The notes under the pieces were generated by a model. It saw nothing but the letters and a program-made list of their open reading frames with translations. It ran no database searches and was not told the origin of the DNA. A DNA stretch of 64,000 bases, taken from a virus. Below are positions 30,876-55,605 of the stretch, in pieces. Location of the stretch: the IMG/VR virus record IMGVR_UViG_3300021171_000005, positions 29,866-93,865 of that record; one strand, given 5' to 3'. The position numbers and the translations under genes were made by a program. Each line of letters opens with the position of its first letter. The stretch's first letter is position 1.

Positions 30876-31358
30876 CTAATTGATAAAGGCAGCACTTCGT
30901 TTCGGTGACCCAAAATGATGGGCTATGAATTCAACGGCTTCTTCCGTGGTATTGAGATAATGGGATACTGCTTCTTTTACAAAAGGATGGTTGAGCATCA
31001 ATTTATTTGCGGGGTGGACGACCGCGATAATCGGCTTCTTCATCTCCCACGCCCATGCCAGCTCGCAGATTGTTCCTAGCAATGGGCGGGGCGAGCCGAA
31101 GCTCTCCAAATGCATCAGAATGACGTCGGACGCCACGACATCGTGGTAGTCTCGCAGGATGATGTCCTTCGACGTGAGATTAGGATCGGTAATGCCGCCG
31201 TCCGGAGATTCGAGGGCAAGATTCTCTTTGCCCCGCATTGGAGAAAGAACATCAAACTCATGAGCCTCCAGAATGGGAGTTACTTCAATTCTCCACAATA
31301 AAGATTCGGGATAATCAGTAGAAATCAATCCTGCCAAATATATAGTCTTGCGTTTCAT
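30876..31358 (-). CDS. Nucleoside 2-deoxyribosyltransferase-like protein
   Basis: 160 residues. The fold signature is clear: IYLAGLISTDYPESLLWR (phosphate/nucleobase loop), FDVLSPMRG, DIILRDYHDVVASDVILMHL and SPRPLLGTICELAWAWEMKKPIIAV. The G-T-xx-E motif is the usual catalytic Glu region. Phage members rework nucleotides or modify bases. It overlaps recA's end by four bases. Confidence 0.75.
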   Translation of the reverse strand: MKRKTIYLAGLISTDYPESLLWRIEVTPILEAHEFDVLSPMRGKENLALESPDGGITDPNLTSKDIILRDYHDVVASDVILMHLESFGSPRPLLGTICELAWAWEMKKPIIAVVHPANKLMLNHPFVKEAVSHYLNTTEEAVEFIAHHFGSPKRSAAFIN

Positions 31359-32305
31359 ACCAGTTCCTTTTCAATCTCCTCTAGAATTGCGGGGTTCTCG
31401 TCCAAGAACGCTACAGCATTAAATCTTCCTTGCCAGCGATTTTCCCCGTAAGTCATCCACGCCCCGCTCTTGCTCACAACCCCCGCAGTAACCGCCATAT
31501 CAAAAATATCTCCAGAGCGGGAGAATCCTCGGTCGTAGAGCAGATCGAATTCTGCAACTTTGCTAGGGGCCGAAACTTTATTTTTCTGGATTTTAACTTT
31601 TGTTCTTGCTCCAATTACTTCTTCGCCGTTCTTGATTGCTCCCGCTTTTGAGACTTCCAGACGCATACCCGCGTAGAAGCGTAAGGCTTTTCCTCCCGTG
31701 GTTGTGGCCGGGTTTCCGTACATAACACCGATGCGGTCGCGCATCTGGTTAATCATGATGAAAACGCAATTGGACTTGTGAACAAGTGCAGTCAATTTGC
31801 GCATAGCCTGAGACATCATGCGGGCTTGCAGACCCATCTGAGCATCACCAAACTCGCCTTCAAGCTCGGCGCGAGGAACCAGTGCTGCTACGGAGTCCAC
31901 AACAACAACCGCAATATCTCCGGACTCGACCAAAGCCTTAGCAATTTCTAGAGCCTCTTCCCCGCAGCTTGGCTGGCTGATGAGAAGATCGTCTACGTTT
32001 ACGCCCAATTTGGCGGCATGGTCCCGATCAATTGCATGCTCTGCGTCCACAATTGCACAGAGTTCACCACCCCGTTGGGCTTGCCCGATTACTGACATGG
32101 AAATGGAAGTCTTACCGACCGCCTCTTGGCCAAAAATCTCGATCACGCGACCGCGAGGAAATCCACCTACCCCGGTAGCCGAATCGAGGCTTGGTATGCC
32201 CGTAGAAATGACTTGAACCGGAACGTGCTCGGTATCTCCCATACGAATAAGTGCTCCAGCTCCAAATTGTTTGTTAATTCGAGCTGTCGTTTCTTTGATA
32301 GTCAT
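31355..32305 (-). CDS. recA: RecA recombinase
   Basis: 316 residues from ATG 32305 (AGGATT just upstream); the longer frame would run into the neighbouring gene. Walker A GQEAVGKT at 59-66, the DAEHAIDRDHAAKLGV segment, Walker B VVVVDSVAALVPRAE, the L2 region with GGKALRFYAGMRLEV, and KVKIQKNKVSAP. The acidic bacterial C-terminal tail is absent, as in many phage recA genes. It makes DNA-strand-exchange filaments and probably acts in replication repair alongside the ERF annealing protein. Confidence 0.93.
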   Translation of the reverse strand: MTIKETTARINKQFGAGALIRMGDTEHVPVQVISTGIPSLDSATGVGGFPRGRVIEIFGQEAVGKTSISMSVIGQAQRGGELCAIVDAEHAIDRDHAAKLGVNVDDLLISQPSCGEEALEIAKALVESGDIAVVVVDSVAALVPRAELEGEFGDAQMGLQARMMSQAMRKLTALVHKSNCVFIMINQMRDRIGVMYGNPATTTGGKALRFYAGMRLEVSKAGAIKNGEEVIGARTKVKIQKNKVSAPSKVAEFDLLYDRGFSRSGDIFDMAVTAGVVSKSGAWMTYGENRWQGRFNAVAFLDENPAILEEIEKELV

Positions 32306-32313
32306 AATCCTCG

Positions 32314-33069
32314 CTAGCAATTCGTCGTGCGAGCGCCATCCTCGCACTTCACAGCCCGACCCCAACCTCCGCAATCAAGACATTGAAAGCGACGGTATCG
32401 ACGAGACTGCGTAATCGTGAATCCACGGTATTGAATGTTCTTTGAATTACATTTCGGGCAAAATGCGCGGTTGACTACAGTGAAATTAGGATGATTGCTG
32501 ATCCAAGGACGCAGCCGGAGATATAGCTTTTCCAGCAACAGAATATCTTTCTTGTTGTACTTCACCATTAACGCCCATGATTTAGGATCACCTTCAATGC
32601 ACCCCTGCCACAAATCGAAGTCCGTCTTAATCTTTTTCTCATTCTCAAGTAGCGCGGACAAATCATCCAATTTATTGCTATTGAATCTTGCTACCTTCTT
32701 CGTCGCTTTCTTGGTATCGATGGTCTTAAACGGCTTCGGAGGTTTCAACCCGTGAAAGATAAATCGCGCTTGGAATACTTTTATATCGAATTGGTCTCCA
32801 TTGTGCGCAACAATAATATCAGCTTCGTTGACTAAAGTCCACAGGTCTTTCACCAATTTCTCGTCATTGTACGATCCGGGGCGATAGCCTTTGAAATCCG
32901 GCAAAGCCTTTGCGAATACCTCTTTCTCATCTAGCCATTTGGCTGCGTAAGTTGCGAGGCAGGTCTCCTGTTTGAATCGAATGATATTCTGTTCATACTT
33001 GCCCCATGAATATCCAATGTTGGGGAATGTCTCCAGATCGAGAAAAAGTATTCTAGGTCGTTTTTGCAT
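32314..33069 (-). CDS. DnaQ/RNase H-fold 3'-5' exonuclease with zinc ribbon
   Basis: 251 residues from ATG 33069, chosen because AAGGA lies seven bases upstream and a longer start would overlap the spanin-like gene. Exo motifs: RILFLDLETFPNIGYSW (D-x-E), IIVAHNGDQFDIKVFQARF (the N-x-xFD block) and YNKKDILLLEKLYL (the Y/N-x3-D block). C-terminal zinc ribbon: FCPKCNSKNI ... FQCLDCGGWG. Likely a DNA exonuclease in repair or degradation, fitting its place next to recA. Confidence 0.8.
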   Translation of the reverse strand: MQKRPRILFLDLETFPNIGYSWGKYEQNIIRFKQETCLATYAAKWLDEKEVFAKALPDFKGYRPGSYNDEKLVKDLWTLVNEADIIVAHNGDQFDIKVFQARFIFHGLKPPKPFKTIDTKKATKKVARFNSNKLDDLSALLENEKKIKTDFDLWQGCIEGDPKSWALMVKYNKKDILLLEKLYLRLRPWISNHPNFTVVNRAFCPKCNSKNIQYRGFTITQSRRYRRFQCLDCGGWGRAVKCEDGARTTNC

Positions 33070-33079
33070 TGGGTCCTTT

Positions 33080-33790
33080 TTAGAATCTATGCCCGAGGGC
33101 GAAGCCGATACCAATTCCGATGCCAACCTGCTTTAATGCTGTTTTAACTTTTCCAAAGAATGTTGGCTTCGCTACGGCCAATTCTGCTTTACATGCATCA
33201 TTTGCTTTCTTGATTTGATCATTGAGTCCTTGAATTTGCGCGGCCTGCGTTGTATTCACCGCCGCGCAACTCGTTAACTGCTTATTGAGATTATCCTCCA
33301 CTGTATGCCCAGCCAATACCTCCTGATGCAGCGAGTCAACCAATTCTAAGTTCTGTACGGTCGTCACCCCGGCTTGTCCAGATACGGACAAATTCTCTCC
33401 GGCGGGTTGCACATCTTGGGGATTGGCCGAACTAATCAGCGTCCGCCACCTAGCCGCCAGCTCCGCAATTGTAAGAGTTGAATCTACTTTCTGTTGTTGC
33501 GCGGTTTTGTCCTTCAGCGCCGCAATTTGCGTAGCAATTAACGCATTTTGCGTAGACATTTGCGCGGCAAGTTGGGTGTACGCTTGTTGCGAGGCGGCGA
33601 CTTGCTGGGCGAGCTGCTGGTTCTTGGCTACCTGATCATCTAACACTTGCTTCGCAACGGCAGCGGCAGCCACAGCTTCGTCGTGTCTGTGGTTCTCAAA
33701 CTTATTCAACAAGAATAGAAATACACCGAGCCCCGCAAGAATCAGGAAAATCCTCTCGTGAGCTTTTATGAATGTAATCCAGCCAATCAT
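33080..33790 (-). CDS. Rz-like inner-membrane spanin candidate
   Basis: 236 residues. An N-terminal membrane anchor at about 12-29 (RIFLILAGLGVFLFLLNKF), then a long Ala/Gln-rich coiled coil (VAKQVLDDQVAKNQQLAQQV ... QAAQIQGLNDQIKKANDACK), and a C-terminal hydrophobic/Gly stretch (VGIGIGIGFALGHRF). This is the topology of i-spanins, though it is longer than lambda Rz (153 residues). No Rz1-type lipoprotein was found embedded in it. Confidence 0.55.
   Translation of the reverse strand: MIGWITFIKAHERIFLILAGLGVFLFLLNKFENHRHDEAVAAAAVAKQVLDDQVAKNQQLAQQVAASQQAYTQLAAQMSTQNALIATQIAALKDKTAQQQKVDSTLTIAELAARWRTLISSANPQDVQPAGENLSVSGQAGVTTVQNLELVDSLHQEVLAGHTVEDNLNKQLTSCAAVNTTQAAQIQGLNDQIKKANDACKAELAVAKPTFFGKVKTALKQVGIGIGIGFALGHRF
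33375..33390. repeat. Dispersed palindrome site (stoperator-like)
   Basis: TGTCCAGATACGGACA, arms intact, within the spanin-like gene (encodes LSVSGQ). Confidence 0.7.
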
Positions 33791-37039: not shown

Positions 37040-37712
37040 CGGGCTCCTTATCCGCCAAATAAGAGGCTGTCCAGCGCCACAAGATTTCCTTCCGGATGTG
37101 TGAGGCGCTGTTGTCATTCCAACGGTCAAGAATAGGTAGCGGTGGATCATCAAGGCACGCTGTTTTAATCGCACGTTCCCATTCTGCCTTTTCTTCGGCG
37201 CTCATATAACAACCGGCAAGATCCACCCATGCACCGGTTTCAAACTCATTGCGAAACTCATATTCCCCGGCTATTTGCTTATCGAATTCCTGAATGGTGA
37301 CTTTGGGGTTCTTAGCTTTTGCGAGGAGTTCGTCGGTTGGCTTCTTCCCGTCAGCCTTCTTCATGGCGGAAGCAAGCTTAGAAGCCTTAGACATGCCCAT
37401 GTCGATTACATCTTGCGGGGCGGCGACATCGAGGAGTTGTTCGGCGATTTGCGCGGTTGCGTATAATTTTGTCCGGCCAGCGTGTTGGAATTTCTCCGCC
37501 AGTGATTTGATAAAGGCGTTGTACCCGCCGTAGCCAAGCGGCTCCCATAATTTGTTCTCTCGAACATCTTGCAACATCACCCCGAGCCGGACGAAATCCT
37601 TGTCCAATTGCGCGGATTGCTGATCGATATCCGTCAGCAATTTGGTTAATTCAACTTGCAGACGATTGGCTTTCTGGGAGTCTTGCTCGATTACGTTTTC
37701 AACGACGCGCAT
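36972..37712 (-). CDS. Hypothetical protein next to the clamp gene
   Basis: 246 residues. An N-terminal coiled coil (QVELTKLLTDIDQQSAQLDK), a middle region with GYGGYNAFIKSLAEKF, TKLYATAQIAEQLLDVAAPQ and SKASKLASAMKKA that resembles helical DNA-binding domains of plasmid and phage accessory proteins, and a charged C-terminus. It overlaps the clamp gene's end by 22 bases. A role in replication or transcription is only a guess. Confidence 0.5.
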   Translation of the reverse strand: MRVVENVIEQDSQKANRLQVELTKLLTDIDQQSAQLDKDFVRLGVMLQDVRENKLWEPLGYGGYNAFIKSLAEKFQHAGRTKLYATAQIAEQLLDVAAPQDVIDMGMSKASKLASAMKKADGKKPTDELLAKAKNPKVTIQEFDKQIAGEYEFRNEFETGAWVDLAGCYMSAEEKAEWERAIKTACLDDPPLPILDRWNDNSASHIRKEILWRWTASYLADKEPDVLKKSSDVRDQSLDPQTDSDF

Positions 37713-38746
37713 AGCAGTCTTTTGGCTCCGGCTTCGAGGTATATTGGTTGGCCTTCCGAATTGGCGTTTAGCAAAACGTCACCGGAGACCTCATTAAAGA
37801 ATTCCTGCAACTGATGCAGCTTAATCCCGAACTTAAATGTATCGAATAAAGGGTCTGATTCTATTGAAATTGCGGGGATTGCATCCTCACCAGAACCGTT
37901 ATTTCCTACTGCATTTAGTATAACATTGGTACTTCCAATAGTCAATGTAATTCTATCGTTTTCTTTATCAACGATGGGTTCAATACGACGTAAGGCTTCT
38001 TTCATTTCTTGCGCGGCTATTTTGGATATAATAGAGAATGTCTTTGGAATGATGGAATTACAGTTGGGAAATTCCTTAGCTAATTGCCGGGCAACGATAA
38101 TCGCGGGGCCGGACTTGAAATACAGATTCGTGGTATCTTGGTAGATCGTGACGACCTCGCCCCGCAAAGCTTTGGTGGCCTGAATGACTTGGACGGGCAT
38201 GATGAATGAAAATGGCGGGGCGGCGCTAGGCATATCCACGATTCCCATGCGTTTGCCATCGGTGCCGTAGGCCGATAGCGTTTGTCCGGAACTGGATAAG
38301 AGGACAGACCCCGTATAGGAAAACTGCTGACCCGACTCCGAGGCCGACGCCGCGTAATTCACCATCTCATTGAACTGTTTCGTATCCAGAACACAGACTG
38401 CATTCAGGGGAAGTGTGATCTTTGGGATTTGCGGGGTCGCGAGGATAGGAATAGTCAGCTTCGACTGTTTTCGTTTCAGTTGTAATTTGCTAATAAGCTC
38501 CGGGTTTGTTTCGACCTTGCCGAGACCATTCAGCAGGGAGATATCGATTTCGTCATCCAACCGCCCGGCAATCTGTGAGAACTTCTCCGCAGAGACACCA
38601 AACGTACCCATATCCGGGCATATAACACCGACTGTTATATTTATCCCGACCGCGTAGGCGAGAGACCCTGCAAAGATCAAGGAATCAGTTTTAACTGTAC
38701 CTAAGACCTTCACTACGTCCTTCAACTGCGTGGCCGGGATTTTCAT
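37691..38746 (-). CDS. DNA polymerase sliding clamp (beta-clamp-like)
   Basis: 351 residues, close to the size of bacterial DnaN (about 366). The three-domain order of the beta clamp is visible: MKIPATQLKDVVKVLGTVK, then LDTKQFNEMVNYAASASES with GSVLLSSSGQTLSAYGTDGKR, then SIISKIAAQEMKEALRRIEP and a C-terminal IYLEAGAKRLL. It would tether the PolA-type polymerase encoded at 53656. It is upstream of the hypothetical gene at 36972. Confidence 0.8.
   Translation of the reverse strand: MKIPATQLKDVVKVLGTVKTDSLIFAGSLAYAVGINITVGVICPDMGTFGVSAEKFSQIAGRLDDEIDISLLNGLGKVETNPELISKLQLKRKQSKLTIPILATPQIPKITLPLNAVCVLDTKQFNEMVNYAASASESGQQFSYTGSVLLSSSGQTLSAYGTDGKRMGIVDMPSAAPPFSFIMPVQVIQATKALRGEVVTIYQDTTNLYFKSGPAIIVARQLAKEFPNCNSIIPKTFSIISKIAAQEMKEALRRIEPIVDKENDRITLTIGSTNVILNAVGNNGSGEDAIPAISIESDPLFDTFKFGIKLHQLQEFFNEVSGDVLLNANSEGQPIYLEAGAKRLLCASLKT
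38283..38298. repeat. Degenerate dispersed palindrome site
   Basis: TGTCCGGAACTGGATA: left arm perfect, one change in the right arm. Within the clamp gene (encodes SSSGQ). Confidence 0.5.
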
Positions 38747-39720: not shown

Positions 39721-41613
39721 CTAAAATATTGATTCTTCTGGTTGCGAGGTAATTTCCGGGGCTTTAATATCGCTGATAATCTCCGAGAACGTACAAACTT
39801 TCCCCGCAAACATCAAAGTCGTATAAGAACCACCCGGTCCTTTGTCACGGAACTTCTTGACCGCGATTTGGGTAATGGGGCTGTATTCGTTGTCGTTTGT
39901 CGTAAGGTCTTTGTTGTGTTTAACCTCGTCGCGATGGATGCTAAATACCGTTGCCGAATCGTTCTGAACCGCCTTTGTACCGTCCAAATCTGAGATGTGA
40001 TTGGTCTTGCCTTTGTGCTGCTGATCGGCTTTCCGCGCCTGATGGACAACAATGAATTTGAGATTGTAGGTCGCAGCCATGTTGGTAATGCGTTGCATGG
40101 CCGTAGCCTGCTCTTTGTAGGTATCCCGCCCCGTACCCCGGCAAAGAAAATGCAGATTATCCAAAACCACAACCGTTGGTCGGAAGTGCTTAATCCCGGA
40201 TTCAATTAAATCCAGAACTTGGTCAATGGAGGTTAGGGAAGTATCCCGGCCAATGTAGTAGCGAAAATCGGGGCCGAGAATTTGGGCGGCATTTCTATAA
40301 TCCTGCTCATCCAGATTTAGTCTGTCTTTATGGAGTAAATGTGAAGTGAAAATCGTGTCAATTTGATGAGATGTTAATTCGGCTTGGTAGTTGAGTACTG
40401 TTTCTTTATGCTTCTGCGCTCCGTGAATAGTCGCTTGAAATACCCACGACGATTTACCCATGCCGGAATCTGTTGAAAACACGGTAGTTACGGTGCCCGG
40501 CAAGATAATAGCCATGTCGTCTACGGACTTCCAAGGGAACCGAAACCGGTCAGGATGATCAATGAGTTTGGTATGCTCGCCCGTCATCAAGCTGTGTTGA
40601 ACGCTGTATATGCCTTTAAAGGGTTTCGATTTAGCTTCCGCAGTAAGACTCTCTACCTTAGTCCTAAAGGACTCACTAAATCGATTTATCTCCTTCAGGA
40701 ATACATCAGAAGCATCTTTATGAGGTTTGGCCCACTGAAATCCACAAGCGCGGTCCTTGAGCGCCACACGAAAGCGCTCCATACACTCGATTCCGGGTTT
40801 ATCCGTATCTCCGGCCAATACAACATAATCTGCTAATTCCAGTTTTTCTAGCATTTCCGCTGTAGGCTTGATTTCCGCTCCGGGAACACTACAAGCAGCA
40901 AATCCAGATTGCACCAGAATGGCCATATCGTACCCACCTTCTACCAAGTAGACCGGACTTAGTGGGTCGATTAAATGGTATCCAAACAGGGTATCCGTTT
41001 TCATTCCCGGTACCTTCCTGACCTCTTTGCGAATTATCGACCGAACTTCTAGGGCCGTAACTTCATCGCCATCAATTGCTGGTAAGCAAATCCATCCCTT
41101 GTCAAATACATCTTCCAAGCCAGAACGATAAATTTGCATTCCATCTAAAGTTTGGACAAACCCCATGTGGAGTTTCTTGGCAGTATCGAAGGTTATGCCT
41201 CGTTCTTGCAACAACCAGTTCTGCACAAAAGTATTTGTCGCAAGTGCTTCTTCAAATTTTCTGTATCTGGAAAGCGACAACGTAACAGCCGGTACACTTC
41301 GTTTTTGAAATACTTTTTCGGAGCGTTCTTGGTCTGCCGCGCCCGTCAGATTTTCTACAATTTCACACGCTTTGGAAAAATTACAATTGTCAAGTCGCTG
41401 GATGAATTGAAAAATATTGCCAGCTCCTTGGCAACCAAAACACTTCCAAAGCCATACGCCTTCGTGTTGATATACGGTGAACGACGGGGTATCGTCTTTG
41501 TGAGAAGGGAGGGGGCATTTGCCCAAAAGTTCCGTTCCACGCTTTGTGAGTTTGGCGCGACTACGATAGATATTCAATACTTCAGGGCGCTTTTTTAGTT
41601 CTTCTGGAGTCAT
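39721..41613 (-). CDS. Primase-helicase (T7 gp4-like)
   Basis: 630 residues. CHC2-type zinc finger: CPLPSH at 33-38 and CFGC at 58-61. TOPRIM domain: VYLVEGGYDMAILVQSGF with Glu225, and VVLAGDTDKPG with Asp269/Asp271. DnaB-type helicase: Walker A DSGMGKS at 382-388, Walker B VVVLDNLHFL, and an H3/H4-like FIVVHQARKA. It unwinds DNA and makes primers at the replication fork. It overlaps the upstream initiator-like gene by four bases (ATGA), so the two are coupled. Confidence 0.92.
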   Translation of the reverse strand: MTPEELKKRPEVLNIYRSRAKLTKRGTELLGKCPLPSHKDDTPSFTVYQHEGVWLWKCFGCQGAGNIFQFIQRLDNCNFSKACEIVENLTGAADQERSEKVFQKRSVPAVTLSLSRYRKFEEALATNTFVQNWLLQERGITFDTAKKLHMGFVQTLDGMQIYRSGLEDVFDKGWICLPAIDGDEVTALEVRSIIRKEVRKVPGMKTDTLFGYHLIDPLSPVYLVEGGYDMAILVQSGFAACSVPGAEIKPTAEMLEKLELADYVVLAGDTDKPGIECMERFRVALKDRACGFQWAKPHKDASDVFLKEINRFSESFRTKVESLTAEAKSKPFKGIYSVQHSLMTGEHTKLIDHPDRFRFPWKSVDDMAIILPGTVTTVFSTDSGMGKSSWVFQATIHGAQKHKETVLNYQAELTSHQIDTIFTSHLLHKDRLNLDEQDYRNAAQILGPDFRYYIGRDTSLTSIDQVLDLIESGIKHFRPTVVVLDNLHFLCRGTGRDTYKEQATAMQRITNMAATYNLKFIVVHQARKADQQHKGKTNHISDLDGTKAVQNDSATVFSIHRDEVKHNKDLTTNDNEYSPITQIAVKKFRDKGPGGSYTTLMFAGKVCTFSEIISDIKAPEITSQPEESIF

Positions 41614-42647
41614 AGAATTTTTCCAAAGTCTACTGGCTTAGGAATGTTAGATAGAATCTTTTCAGATTCCGCTTGTCCTTTCTCCACTATGGTTTCGATT
41701 TGTTTATTAGTCTGCTCTATTTTTTCTTGTCGCTTGCGGCGTATCTCAATCAACTGCACGGCGGTTTCTGTAAAGTCCTTAGCTGCGTAATTCAAGTTGA
41801 AGTCTCCGCGATTCGCTAAGAATTCATGGTATGCAGCTTTGATGTCCGCATCTGGATAATTTTTCCGCAGCCGCGCAATTTCTGTAGAAAGCTTGTCATT
41901 GAAAAGAACAACCCCATCGGACAAATCTCCGAGTTCGGTAATTAGAACTTGGCACTCTCGGTCTGTGTGGAGAGTTCTGATGCCTCGCAAAATTCCCGGT
42001 GCTACGTCAAGAAACTCGGCCAACGGCTTCTTGACTGAATCCGGGTCTTGCGCGACGGCCCAATCGCGAAAAGCAGTCGTGACTTCATTCTGCCCAAAGG
42101 CGTCTGTCAGTTCTTTAATCTCCGCCCAAATATTATCCCAACGTTCGGCTTTCATCCCTAAAACCTGAAGACATATGACTGGGATTTGTTTTTTGGCTGA
42201 CATGGTTTCCTCTACTTCCTGTTTTACTGAATCTACTTCAGGTTTTATTGTATATACTTCGTGGGTGGTTTTAACCCCCTCGGCCACGGGGGTTTTTAAC
42301 CCCTCCGCCCCGTCCCCCCTCGGGGGTTTTAAACCCCTCCGGCCACGGGGGTTTTTAACCACCACGGTCCCTCGCTTAACACGGAAGACTGGTGTACGGT
42401 GCCCGTCCTTGCTTTTCTTTTCCCCTACTTGTTCTAGCCAGCCATTTGTCAACAAATATTTCCGGGCATCCTTAAGGGCGTCGATACTCATGCCCAGATC
42501 AGTGCAAATAGAATCGCGGGACGGCCAAGAAGTTCGGCTAGGGCCTTCACGACAATAGTGGTACATCCATACTTTGAAAGCCGGAAAGGGAAGCAAGAAG
42601 ACTTCTTTCCTGTCGCAGAAAAGTTTCTTAAACGGTCTGGAGGGCAC
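41610..42647 (-). CDS. Winged-helix replication-initiator-like protein
   Basis: 345 residues. The N-terminal winged helix (KVWMYHYCREGPSRTSWPSR, DSICTDLGMSIDALKDARKY, LLTNGWLEQVGEKKSKDGHR) is the fold of phage initiator and loader proteins. A repetitive linker (about 92-150; PRGRRGLKPPRGDGAEGLKT, then EV-x5 repeats) corresponds to DNA tandem repeats, see the candidate origin. The C-terminal part is a helical domain (WDNIWAEIKELTDAFGQNEV ...). Directly upstream of and coupled to the primase-helicase, it plausibly loads it at the origin. Confidence 0.65.
   Translation of the reverse strand: MPSRPFKKLFCDRKEVFLLPFPAFKVWMYHYCREGPSRTSWPSRDSICTDLGMSIDALKDARKYLLTNGWLEQVGEKKSKDGHRTPVFRVKRGTVVVKNPRGRRGLKPPRGDGAEGLKTPVAEGVKTTHEVYTIKPEVDSVKQEVEETMSAKKQIPVICLQVLGMKAERWDNIWAEIKELTDAFGQNEVTTAFRDWAVAQDPDSVKKPLAEFLDVAPGILRGIRTLHTDRECQVLITELGDLSDGVVLFNDKLSTEIARLRKNYPDADIKAAYHEFLANRGDFNLNYAAKDFTETAVQLIEIRRKRQEKIEQTNKQIETIVEKGQAESEKILSNIPKPVDFGKIL
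42208..42365. other. Candidate replication origin: two repeat arrays inside the initiator-like gene
   Basis: Left part: AT-rich 21-bp direct repeats beginning CTACTTC at 42212, 42233 and 42254 (third copy partial). Right part: about four GC-rich units around GGGGGTTTTTAACCCCTCCG near 42267, 42290, 42323 and 42347, including an exact 21-bp direct repeat (42281-42301 and 42340-42360). Each centre is a GGTTTTTAACC-like dyad. Adjacent AT-rich and iteron-like blocks within an initiator gene resemble the arrangement of lambda ori in gene O. Confidence 0.5.
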
Positions 42648-53655: not shown

Positions 53656-55605
53656 TTAATGGGCATCAGACCAATTACTACCAGTCTTTGATTCTACCAA
53701 TATCGGCACTACGATGCCTTTCGTGACGGAAGTCTCCATGATTCGTTTAAGCTCGGCCAACGCCTCTTGTCCTTCTTTTGTAGGAGATACGGACCCCGCC
53801 AATTCATCATGCACCGTAAGGCTTAATTGCAAGGGCCGTCTTTCTGTAATCACCCCGGATTCCCACGCCTCAACCATCGCAGCCTTAGTCATGTCCGCTG
53901 AAGAACCTTGTGTATAGCGGTTCAGCGCCCGATGTAGCCCTGCGCGTTTAATATCACCGTAAGCTTCCAGCGCTTGTTTGTAAGGAAGTGCGAGTGTTTT
54001 GTAGCTGCCGGTTGCACTAGTTTTTGCTTCCCACAAATCAAATCTAGAGCGGCGGTTTAATACTGTTCTAATATACCCTTGCTTCTCCGCCTTCCTCATT
54101 GCTGCTTGCGATACTTCTTTAACGAAGGGAACATTCGTATGATATTGCTCCAACGTATCGTATGCTTCTTGCGTGGGCTCTCCTTGCTCGTCTACCATGC
54201 CCAATTCATTAGCTAATTTCTTAGCCCCCATGCTGAACGCCAAGCCAAAATTTATGTTTTTTGCTGCTTTGCGGGGCAATCCAGTTAGCTCGACCACCAT
54301 GTTATGAAAATCGACAGTCGCATCTTCCCTATACCTTTTGAGCGCTTCCGCCGCCCCGCTACATTTAGAAAGAACCGCAGCGTTAACGATCAGTCGGAAT
54401 TCTATTTGACTGTAGTCATTCGCAAAGAAGTCCTTACCTTCGTCGGGCAAGAACATGGAGCGCAGTAACGGGCCAAGCTCTGGATCGCGAGCTGGTATTT
54501 GCTGGAGGTTTGGCGTCGTACAACTGAAGCGCCCACTGACTGTACCTTTATTCCCATCCTCGTCGCTAGCCCGCCGTAAGGGATGAAATTGCGCGTGAAC
54601 TCGGCCATTGATGTTGTCTTCCAATATGTAGCTGCAAACAAAGGGATTACGAGCTTTCTCGTATTTGCGGGCTTCAAGAATTAGCTTAAATGCCTGATGC
54701 GTTTGTCGCTTCATCCATTGGTTCGTAAAGGATGGATTGCCTTTAGCCGTCTGCGGAAATGTGAGATTCAGCTTTTCACACATCTTTACGAGGTCGGCGG
54801 ACGCCGCAATATTTACCGGAAATCCGGCCATGTCTGCGAGTTGGGCCAACGCTTTATCTCGTTTTCCTGCGAGGACTCCATCAACCTCTTGTGCTTTATT
54901 TACGTCCACGCGAACACCCCGCATTCTCATGGAATTGAGCAGAGGAGTCAGGCGACATTCCAGATTGTAGAGGTCCAGCAATCCTTGCTCGGCCAGCTTC
55001 GCCTTCTGCTTTTCAAGGATTAGCGGGGGAAGATCAATATCTACTAAAGCGTACTCTGTGGCGTGTGCGGGATGGACTTCAGCGAAATGCTTCATTACAT
55101 CATCGCCATACAGTTCCGTTAGATACGTGCTCTTTTTGCCTCCGCCTAGATGCTTTTGTGCGAGACTTTCCAAGCTGTAGCTCATCGCTAATTCATCCAG
55201 CAATGGCTCCGCCCACTGTACGTCATGGAATTTGGCGCGTGGCGCGTGAATGCCATATTTGTTTAGGAAGAACATATCGAAAAGGTTTGAATTGGCCCCG
55301 ATAAGGTCGCCCTTGAAATCCTTCAGTTCAGTTTTAAGCCAGCGAACTACCTGCTGCTCCTCGCAGTTCATGCCTTGCTGGTGGCGAATCGGCCAATAGT
55401 CTCGCACGCCTGTATTGGTTTTTATTCCTACCCCTACAATGTAATCGCCCCGCAAAACATCGAAACCGGAAGTCTCAAGGTCCAAACTGACCCATTTACA
55501 TTGCGCTAGGGAAGGGAACTCAACAGGCGGGCGATATTCTACGGTCGTATACGTTGGAATGTGCCTGATCTTGAAGTCCGGAAACAGGAGTCCCGTATTA
55601 TCCAT
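53656..55605 (-). CDS. Family A DNA polymerase with 3'-5' exonuclease
   Basis: 649 residues. Exonuclease: SLDLETSGFD (D-x-E), LIGANSNLFDMFF (D) and EYALVDIDLPP (Y-x3-D). Polymerase motif A DYSQIEFRL (Asp397), O-helix/motif B RKAAKNINFGLAFSMG (445-460) and motif C LTVHDEL (599-601). At the positions of E. coli Tyr766 and Gly767 it has Phe and Ser, unusual for PolA. No 5' nuclease domain. It is the replicative polymerase of the phage. Palindrome site 55610 lies just upstream of its start. Confidence 0.93.
   Translation of the reverse strand: MDNTGLLFPDFKIRHIPTYTTVEYRPPVEFPSLAQCKWVSLDLETSGFDVLRGDYIVGVGIKTNTGVRDYWPIRHQQGMNCEEQQVVRWLKTELKDFKGDLIGANSNLFDMFFLNKYGIHAPRAKFHDVQWAEPLLDELAMSYSLESLAQKHLGGGKKSTYLTELYGDDVMKHFAEVHPAHATEYALVDIDLPPLILEKQKAKLAEQGLLDLYNLECRLTPLLNSMRMRGVRVDVNKAQEVDGVLAGKRDKALAQLADMAGFPVNIAASADLVKMCEKLNLTFPQTAKGNPSFTNQWMKRQTHQAFKLILEARKYEKARNPFVCSYILEDNINGRVHAQFHPLRRASDEDGNKGTVSGRFSCTTPNLQQIPARDPELGPLLRSMFLPDEGKDFFANDYSQIEFRLIVNAAVLSKCSGAAEALKRYREDATVDFHNMVVELTGLPRKAAKNINFGLAFSMGAKKLANELGMVDEQGEPTQEAYDTLEQYHTNVPFVKEVSQAAMRKAEKQGYIRTVLNRRSRFDLWEAKTSATGSYKTLALPYKQALEAYGDIKRAGLHRALNRYTQGSSADMTKAAMVEAWESGVITERRPLQLSLTVHDELAGSVSPTKEGQEALAELKRIMETSVTKGIVVPILVESKTGSNWSDAH

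Follow-up and report, generated by a model that had tools for sequence, protein, structure and literature searches.

A repeat block lying inside the gene for an O-like initiator is probably the replication origin, or one of several, of an uncultivated phage of roughly 94 kb, and its anatomy is that of the lambda type. The block was studied in a window of 64,000 nucleotides, which spans 29866-93865 of a virus contig of 93,865 bp, and provides a testable candidate origin for a poorly studied group, distant relatives of which occur in Acidobacteriota genomes. An earlier sequence-only reading had proposed a candidate origin at this place; all of the points that can be tested on sequence agree with the proposal, including the finding that related initiator genes carry, at the corresponding joint, repeats that are unrelated in sequence. 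The relevant features are as follows, with dyad sequences written on the gene strand:

41610-42647, minus strand: predicted O-like initiator gene (345 aa, GTG start), assigned from PHROG matches and an AlphaFold2 model
39721-41613, minus strand: downstream gene for a primase-helicase (CHC2 zinc finger, TOPRIM, DnaB-like helicase), sharing 4 nt with the initiator gene at the stop of the latter
42263-42365, minus strand: GC-rich iteron block, with four dyads and one long nested inverted repeat
42350-42360, minus strand: dyad 1, GGTTAAAAACC, opening the first exact 21-mer (42340-42360)
42325-42335, minus strand: dyad 2, GGTTTAAAACC
42291-42301, minus strand: dyad 3, GGTTAAAAACC, opening the second exact 21-mer (42281-42301)
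42267-42276, minus strand: dyad 4, GGTTAAAACC
42208-42262, minus strand: A-rich block, candidate unwinding element, with 2.4 imperfect 21-bp direct repeats
42201-42203, minus strand: internal ATG with GAGGAA before it, from which a C-domain-only product might start
42236-42247 and 42159-42170, no strand assigned: arms of a 12-nt perfect inverted repeat (TAAAACCTGAAG / CTTCAGGTTTTA), on either side of the internal start

The initiator is predicted to consist of a winged helix (residues about 17-90), a disordered linker (92-148) and a helical C-domain (149-345). In the AlphaFold2 model, used for its outline alone given a mean pLDDT of 65, the winged helix is made of helices 21-33, 44-51 and 55-67 and strands 71-78 and 84-90, residues 92-148 are without confident structure, and an all-helical C-domain runs from residue 151. 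The low-confidence linker is precisely the stretch encoded by the repeats, and the dyad array accordingly falls between the coding parts of the DNA-binding and C-terminal domains. N-terminal matches to PHROG families are weak but significant: phrog_30408, of unknown function (7.9e-6), the O-like phrog_391 (3.4e-5) and phrog_678 (6.4e-4), and the DnaD-like phrog_186 (2.4e-4). They point to an O-like N-terminal winged helix, at E-values that are modest, those of the better initiator PHROGs lying between 3.4e-5 and 8e-4. A Pfam match to HTH_36 fell below the cut-off, the fold search returned generic winged helices with weak matches that include the DnaD N-domain, and a sequence search of the PDB gave no match. 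A lambda O-like C-domain was not found in Pfam, PHROG or NCBIfam, the O-like match stopping at residue 152, and we therefore do not file the protein as a whole-length lambda O homologue. Searches for close relatives of the whole initiator in viral contigs, and of its N-domain in phages and plasmids, gave no significant match.

The model, the O-like PHROG matches and the identity of the next gene bear out the claim of the sequence-only reading that a winged-helix protein is coupled here to a primase-helicase. Upstream of the initiator are genes for an exonuclease, an Erf annealing protein, an RNA ligase and an integrase; downstream is one for a clamp-like protein. We note in the window a DNA polymerase processivity factor at 37691-38746 (phrog_947, 6.9e-31; sliding-clamp Pfam hits weak), a phage RecA of the full-length type at 31355-32374 (436 bits, over the equivalog cut-off), and, at 53656-55605, a DNA polymerase of family A, for which DpoZ, an aminoadenine-incorporating enzyme, is the top NCBIfam match at 330 bits, short of the cut-off of 500. 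The DpoZ-like polymerase hinted at a 2-aminoadenine genome, a candidate that was rejected as the contig has no relative of adenylosuccinate synthetase. The contig starts and ends with an identical 14 bp, which suggests that the 93.9-kb map closes on itself.

The GC-rich block has a GC content of 64%, equalled in just 0.4% of contig windows of the same size. The about four dyad-bearing, iteron-like units described earlier were recovered as four sites of the form GGTT-N2/3-AACC (42267-42360, inside the minus-strand gene 42647-41610), although they are imperfect, with arms GGTT and AACC around a centre of 2-3 bp. Their start-to-start spacing along the gene, taken from 5' ends, is 25, 34 and 25 bp; counted by plus-strand ends, the first two stand 24 bp apart. 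The A/T-core form of the dyad has a single further site in the whole 93,865-bp contig, in which no second iteron cluster was seen. The exact 21-bp repeat, GGTTAAAAACCCCCGTGGCCG, is likewise present as reported, in two copies 59 bp apart; since 59 cannot be divided by 3, the two copies are translated in two reading frames, and a repeat at the protein level was ruled out on the ground that the exact 21-mer repeat is out of frame. The four dyads also stand in different reading frames. Absent from the earlier reading is the organization of the whole GC-rich block as one nested inverted repeat, or hairpin.

The repeats are a feature of the DNA and not of the protein. Across 5,000 recodings of the linker that followed phage codon usage, no more than two dyads arose and the longest repeat was 13 bp, and not one of the 5,000 synonymous recodings gave four dyads or a 21-bp repeat; the dyads and the 21-mer are thus not explained by the protein sequence. 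When only the linker's own synonymous codons were shuffled, four dyads arose in 11 of 5,000 cases and out-of-frame repeats reached at most 19 bp. The codon choice of the linker is itself among the rarest of the genome (2 of 2064 windows, lowest 0.1%). Direct-repeat coverage at k=9, a measure picked after the feature had been seen, attains its contig maximum here (84 of 160 bp), ahead of the VNTR at the contig end (81) and of the next window (38). That contig end (63915-64000) holds 3.2 copies of an identical 27-bp tandem repeat. The initiator gene piece ranked first of 139 in a codon-aware repeat test, against a background of 8 of 139 gene pieces at 1/60 or less; the second-highest piece belongs to the gene at 33080-33790, in which an imperfect 21-bp tandem repeat is found (33521-33562). 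Lambda O, the positive control, scored 0/300, and its annotated iterons were recovered with their spacing of 20, 24 and 23 and in mixed frames. The test thereby finds the lambda origin by sequence alone and is usable for hidden origins in the initiator genes of unannotated phages. The likeness to lambda in position and form that had been claimed for the block is upheld, the repeats lying exactly in the linker between winged helix and C-domain and being unexplained by the protein, as in lambda O. The low complexity of the linker, also put forward as a sign of selection on the DNA, is a weak argument alone, but takes a stronger form in the frame-independence of the repeats.

Relatives of the primase-helicase were taken from IMG/VR; L046, L047 and L050 came from searching genomes that belong to the same class and family as one with a primase relative. 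L019 is a relative via the primase alone. The initiator genes of the relatives have the C-domain in common at 31-38% identity, and the part before it varies. L002 and L014 carry a fused phrog_1408-like N-domain (weak, E 0.007-0.014). In L003, L015, L030 and L031 the C-domain gene is free-standing, starts MSIKK or MSIQK, and is preceded by a separate gene that overlaps it; this front gene scores as DUF1376/primosomal in L003 and L015, and by eye is alike in L030 and L031. Within the initiator region, repeats peak at the joint before the C-domain in the window and in most relatives; this peak is absent in L005 and L047. The joint repeats are mutually unrelated, consisting of TTGGA units in L014, AAGTAAGTA-type repeats in L015 and L031, AGTAAGAG-type repeats in L003 and L030, and AGCATT in L002. 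Codon-aware recoding matched them in none of 300 trials for the window, L003, L030, L031, L019, L046 and L050, in one for L015, two for L014, four for L002 and 43 for L047; with L003/L030 and L015/L031 being near relatives, the independent cases number about six. L046 has, directly before its C-domain, five 13-bp iterons GAGATCGCCCGAT spaced 22, 23, 22 and 21 bp and read in two frames; the two tandem-repeat blocks of L050 are both in frame. We note in L046 (1964-2068) a second repeat family, GCCATACAGGGAATG-like, with four copies spaced 20, 24 and 43, 3' of the initiator gene. The nearest relative found, L002, is without the dyads of the window, and the DNA-binding domain of its initiator has likewise been replaced; loss of the repeats from an initiator that is otherwise kept, which the sequence-only reading held to speak against an origin, is therefore not what L002 presents. 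Among viral contigs, six further matches to the iteron pair of the window were found, none in such an initiator gene, and were taken as unrelated; against phages, the DNA of the block showed similarity at chance level only. A 24-bp array, CTAGGTTTAAAACCCTGGGTTACT, with a GGTTTAAAACC core, lies upstream of an HNH-like open frame in an unrelated viral contig (L024:4714-4796).

These comparisons bear on whether the repeats might be products of slippage that accumulated in a tolerant linker and have no function at the DNA level. The linker is predicted to be disordered, low-complexity linkers are found in several relatives, and L015 and L031 differ in copy number, as slippage would have it. Out-of-frame exact repeats are, however, rarely left by tandem slippage in a coding linker, the repeats exceed the codon-aware null, and the 13-mers of L046 are conserved at a spacing of 21-23 bp while their spacers have diverged, which argues for selection on DNA sites. 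We regard slippage as quite improbable.

The A-rich block follows the GC-rich block on its 3' side in the direction of the gene. The AT-rich 21-bp repeats reported there are present, but not as three good copies: Tandem Repeats Finder returned 2.4 copies of the unit at 82% match (42211-42260), in frame. An AT-rich tract is thus found on the downstream side of the iterons, of moderate AT-richness (33% GC over 54 bp, a GC content merely in the lowest 4% of the contig); the last 60 nt 5' of the internal ATG are 48% A and 65% AT, compared with 50% A and 68% AT in the AT-rich tract of lambda. The position matching this ATG is where a separate gene starts in L003, L015, L030 and L031. With GAGGAA and ATG kept at the joint (42203), a C-domain-only product is possible.

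The internal start, together with the folding of the block, also lends itself to a reading in which the block acts as a nucleic-acid hairpin, either an mRNA structure controlling the start of the C-domain or a cruciform. The block makes one nested fold (RNA -67.6 kcal/mol, z -3.25; DNA z -3.14), a Shine-Dalgarno sequence and ATG come shortly 3' of it, and relatives encode the C-domain as a separate gene. Yet the iterons of lambda fold more strongly still relative to shuffles (z -5.3), indicating that folding follows from dyad iterons, those of L046 fold weakly (z -1.7), and an Rfam search was without match; a hairpin function is accordingly very improbable. An intrinsic terminator or structured RNA was rejected, there being no Rfam match and the terminator-like hits in the block lying solely opposite the gene strand.

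A protein other than the initiator could bind the dyad array. Sites for a regulator, be it the initiator as autorepressor, a phage repressor or a partition protein, are an unlikely alternative to an origin: GGTT-N-AACC dyads resemble ordinary operator-like sites of winged helix-turn-helix proteins, and the weak fold matches of the initiator include the centromere-binding TubR and AspA. The dyads lie mid-gene and not at a promoter, however, and an A-rich tract adjoins them as in lambda. No partition gene was found among the subset of contig genes scanned, and relatives retain repeats at the joint though both the sequence and the DNA-binding domain differ.

On the origin reading, and by analogy with lambda, we infer that the four GGRGGGGTTWAAAACCCC-like dyads would serve as iterons, to which the encoded winged-helix protein would bind in dimeric form, and that the assembled complex would strain and melt the adjoining A-rich segment. 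Tethered by a disordered linker that the putative origin itself encodes, the helical C-domain may then bring the primase-helicase of the next gene onto the opened strand. Third-position GC skew showed no switch at the site. The relatives further allow us to propose, tentatively, a modular initiation cassette in which a conserved C-domain, a candidate loader of the primase-helicase, is either fused to or encoded in a separate gene overlapping with interchangeable DNA-binding modules (O-like winged helix, phrog_1408-like, DUF1376-like), with matching origin repeats at the joint. A swap of modules would exchange initiator specificity and origin together, and fused forms may keep an internal start for the C-domain only. 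The interest of the family lies in this apparent exchange of initiator and origin as a unit before a conserved C-domain.

Lambda and its relatives are established cases of an origin within the initiator gene (PMC7466680); in lambda, O dimers bind inverted-repeat iterons and open an adjoining 40-bp A+T-rich region (PMC5043065). The block resembles that of lambda in having dyad iterons in mixed frames in the stretch coding for the linker between winged helix and C-domain, followed by a downstream A-rich tract (PMC5043065, PMC7466680). It differs in iteron sequence, in spacing (about 25/34/25 as opposed to 20/24/23), in a C-domain that is not recognisably that of O, in the one long nested inverted repeat made by its iterons, and in the next gene, which encodes a primase-helicase whereas that of lambda encodes the DnaB loader P. 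SPP1 oriL, another origin inside an initiator gene, likewise combines direct repeats and an AT-rich unwinding element within gene 38 (PMC6316719), but SPP1 carries oriR at another place as well, and its loader, gp39, is separate. AP22-like phages of the genus Obolenskvirus, whose mid-gene repeats have been proposed as a possible origin (PMC10888812), gave the nearest tblastn matches to the winged helix in the phage collection, at a non-significant E of about 0.3. AP22 has CCC/GGG dyad repeats mid-gene, upstream of a helicase gene (PMC10888812), although these do not exceed the recoding null (40/300), and the Obolenskvirus protein is short (248 aa) with another C-part and a helicase that is DnaB-like and not a primase-helicase. 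The prophage-type locus L046, from a genome of an Acidobacteriota class, shares the winged helix, the same C-domain family and iterons in the linker, but its iteron is unrelated and the 19 kb fetched hold no primase-helicase relative. The candidate is therefore of a known kind, that of lambda O and SPP1 gene 38, set apart by its nested inverted-repeat layout and distinctive also for an unnamed modular C-domain, free-standing in relatives, and for its phage primase-helicase partner.
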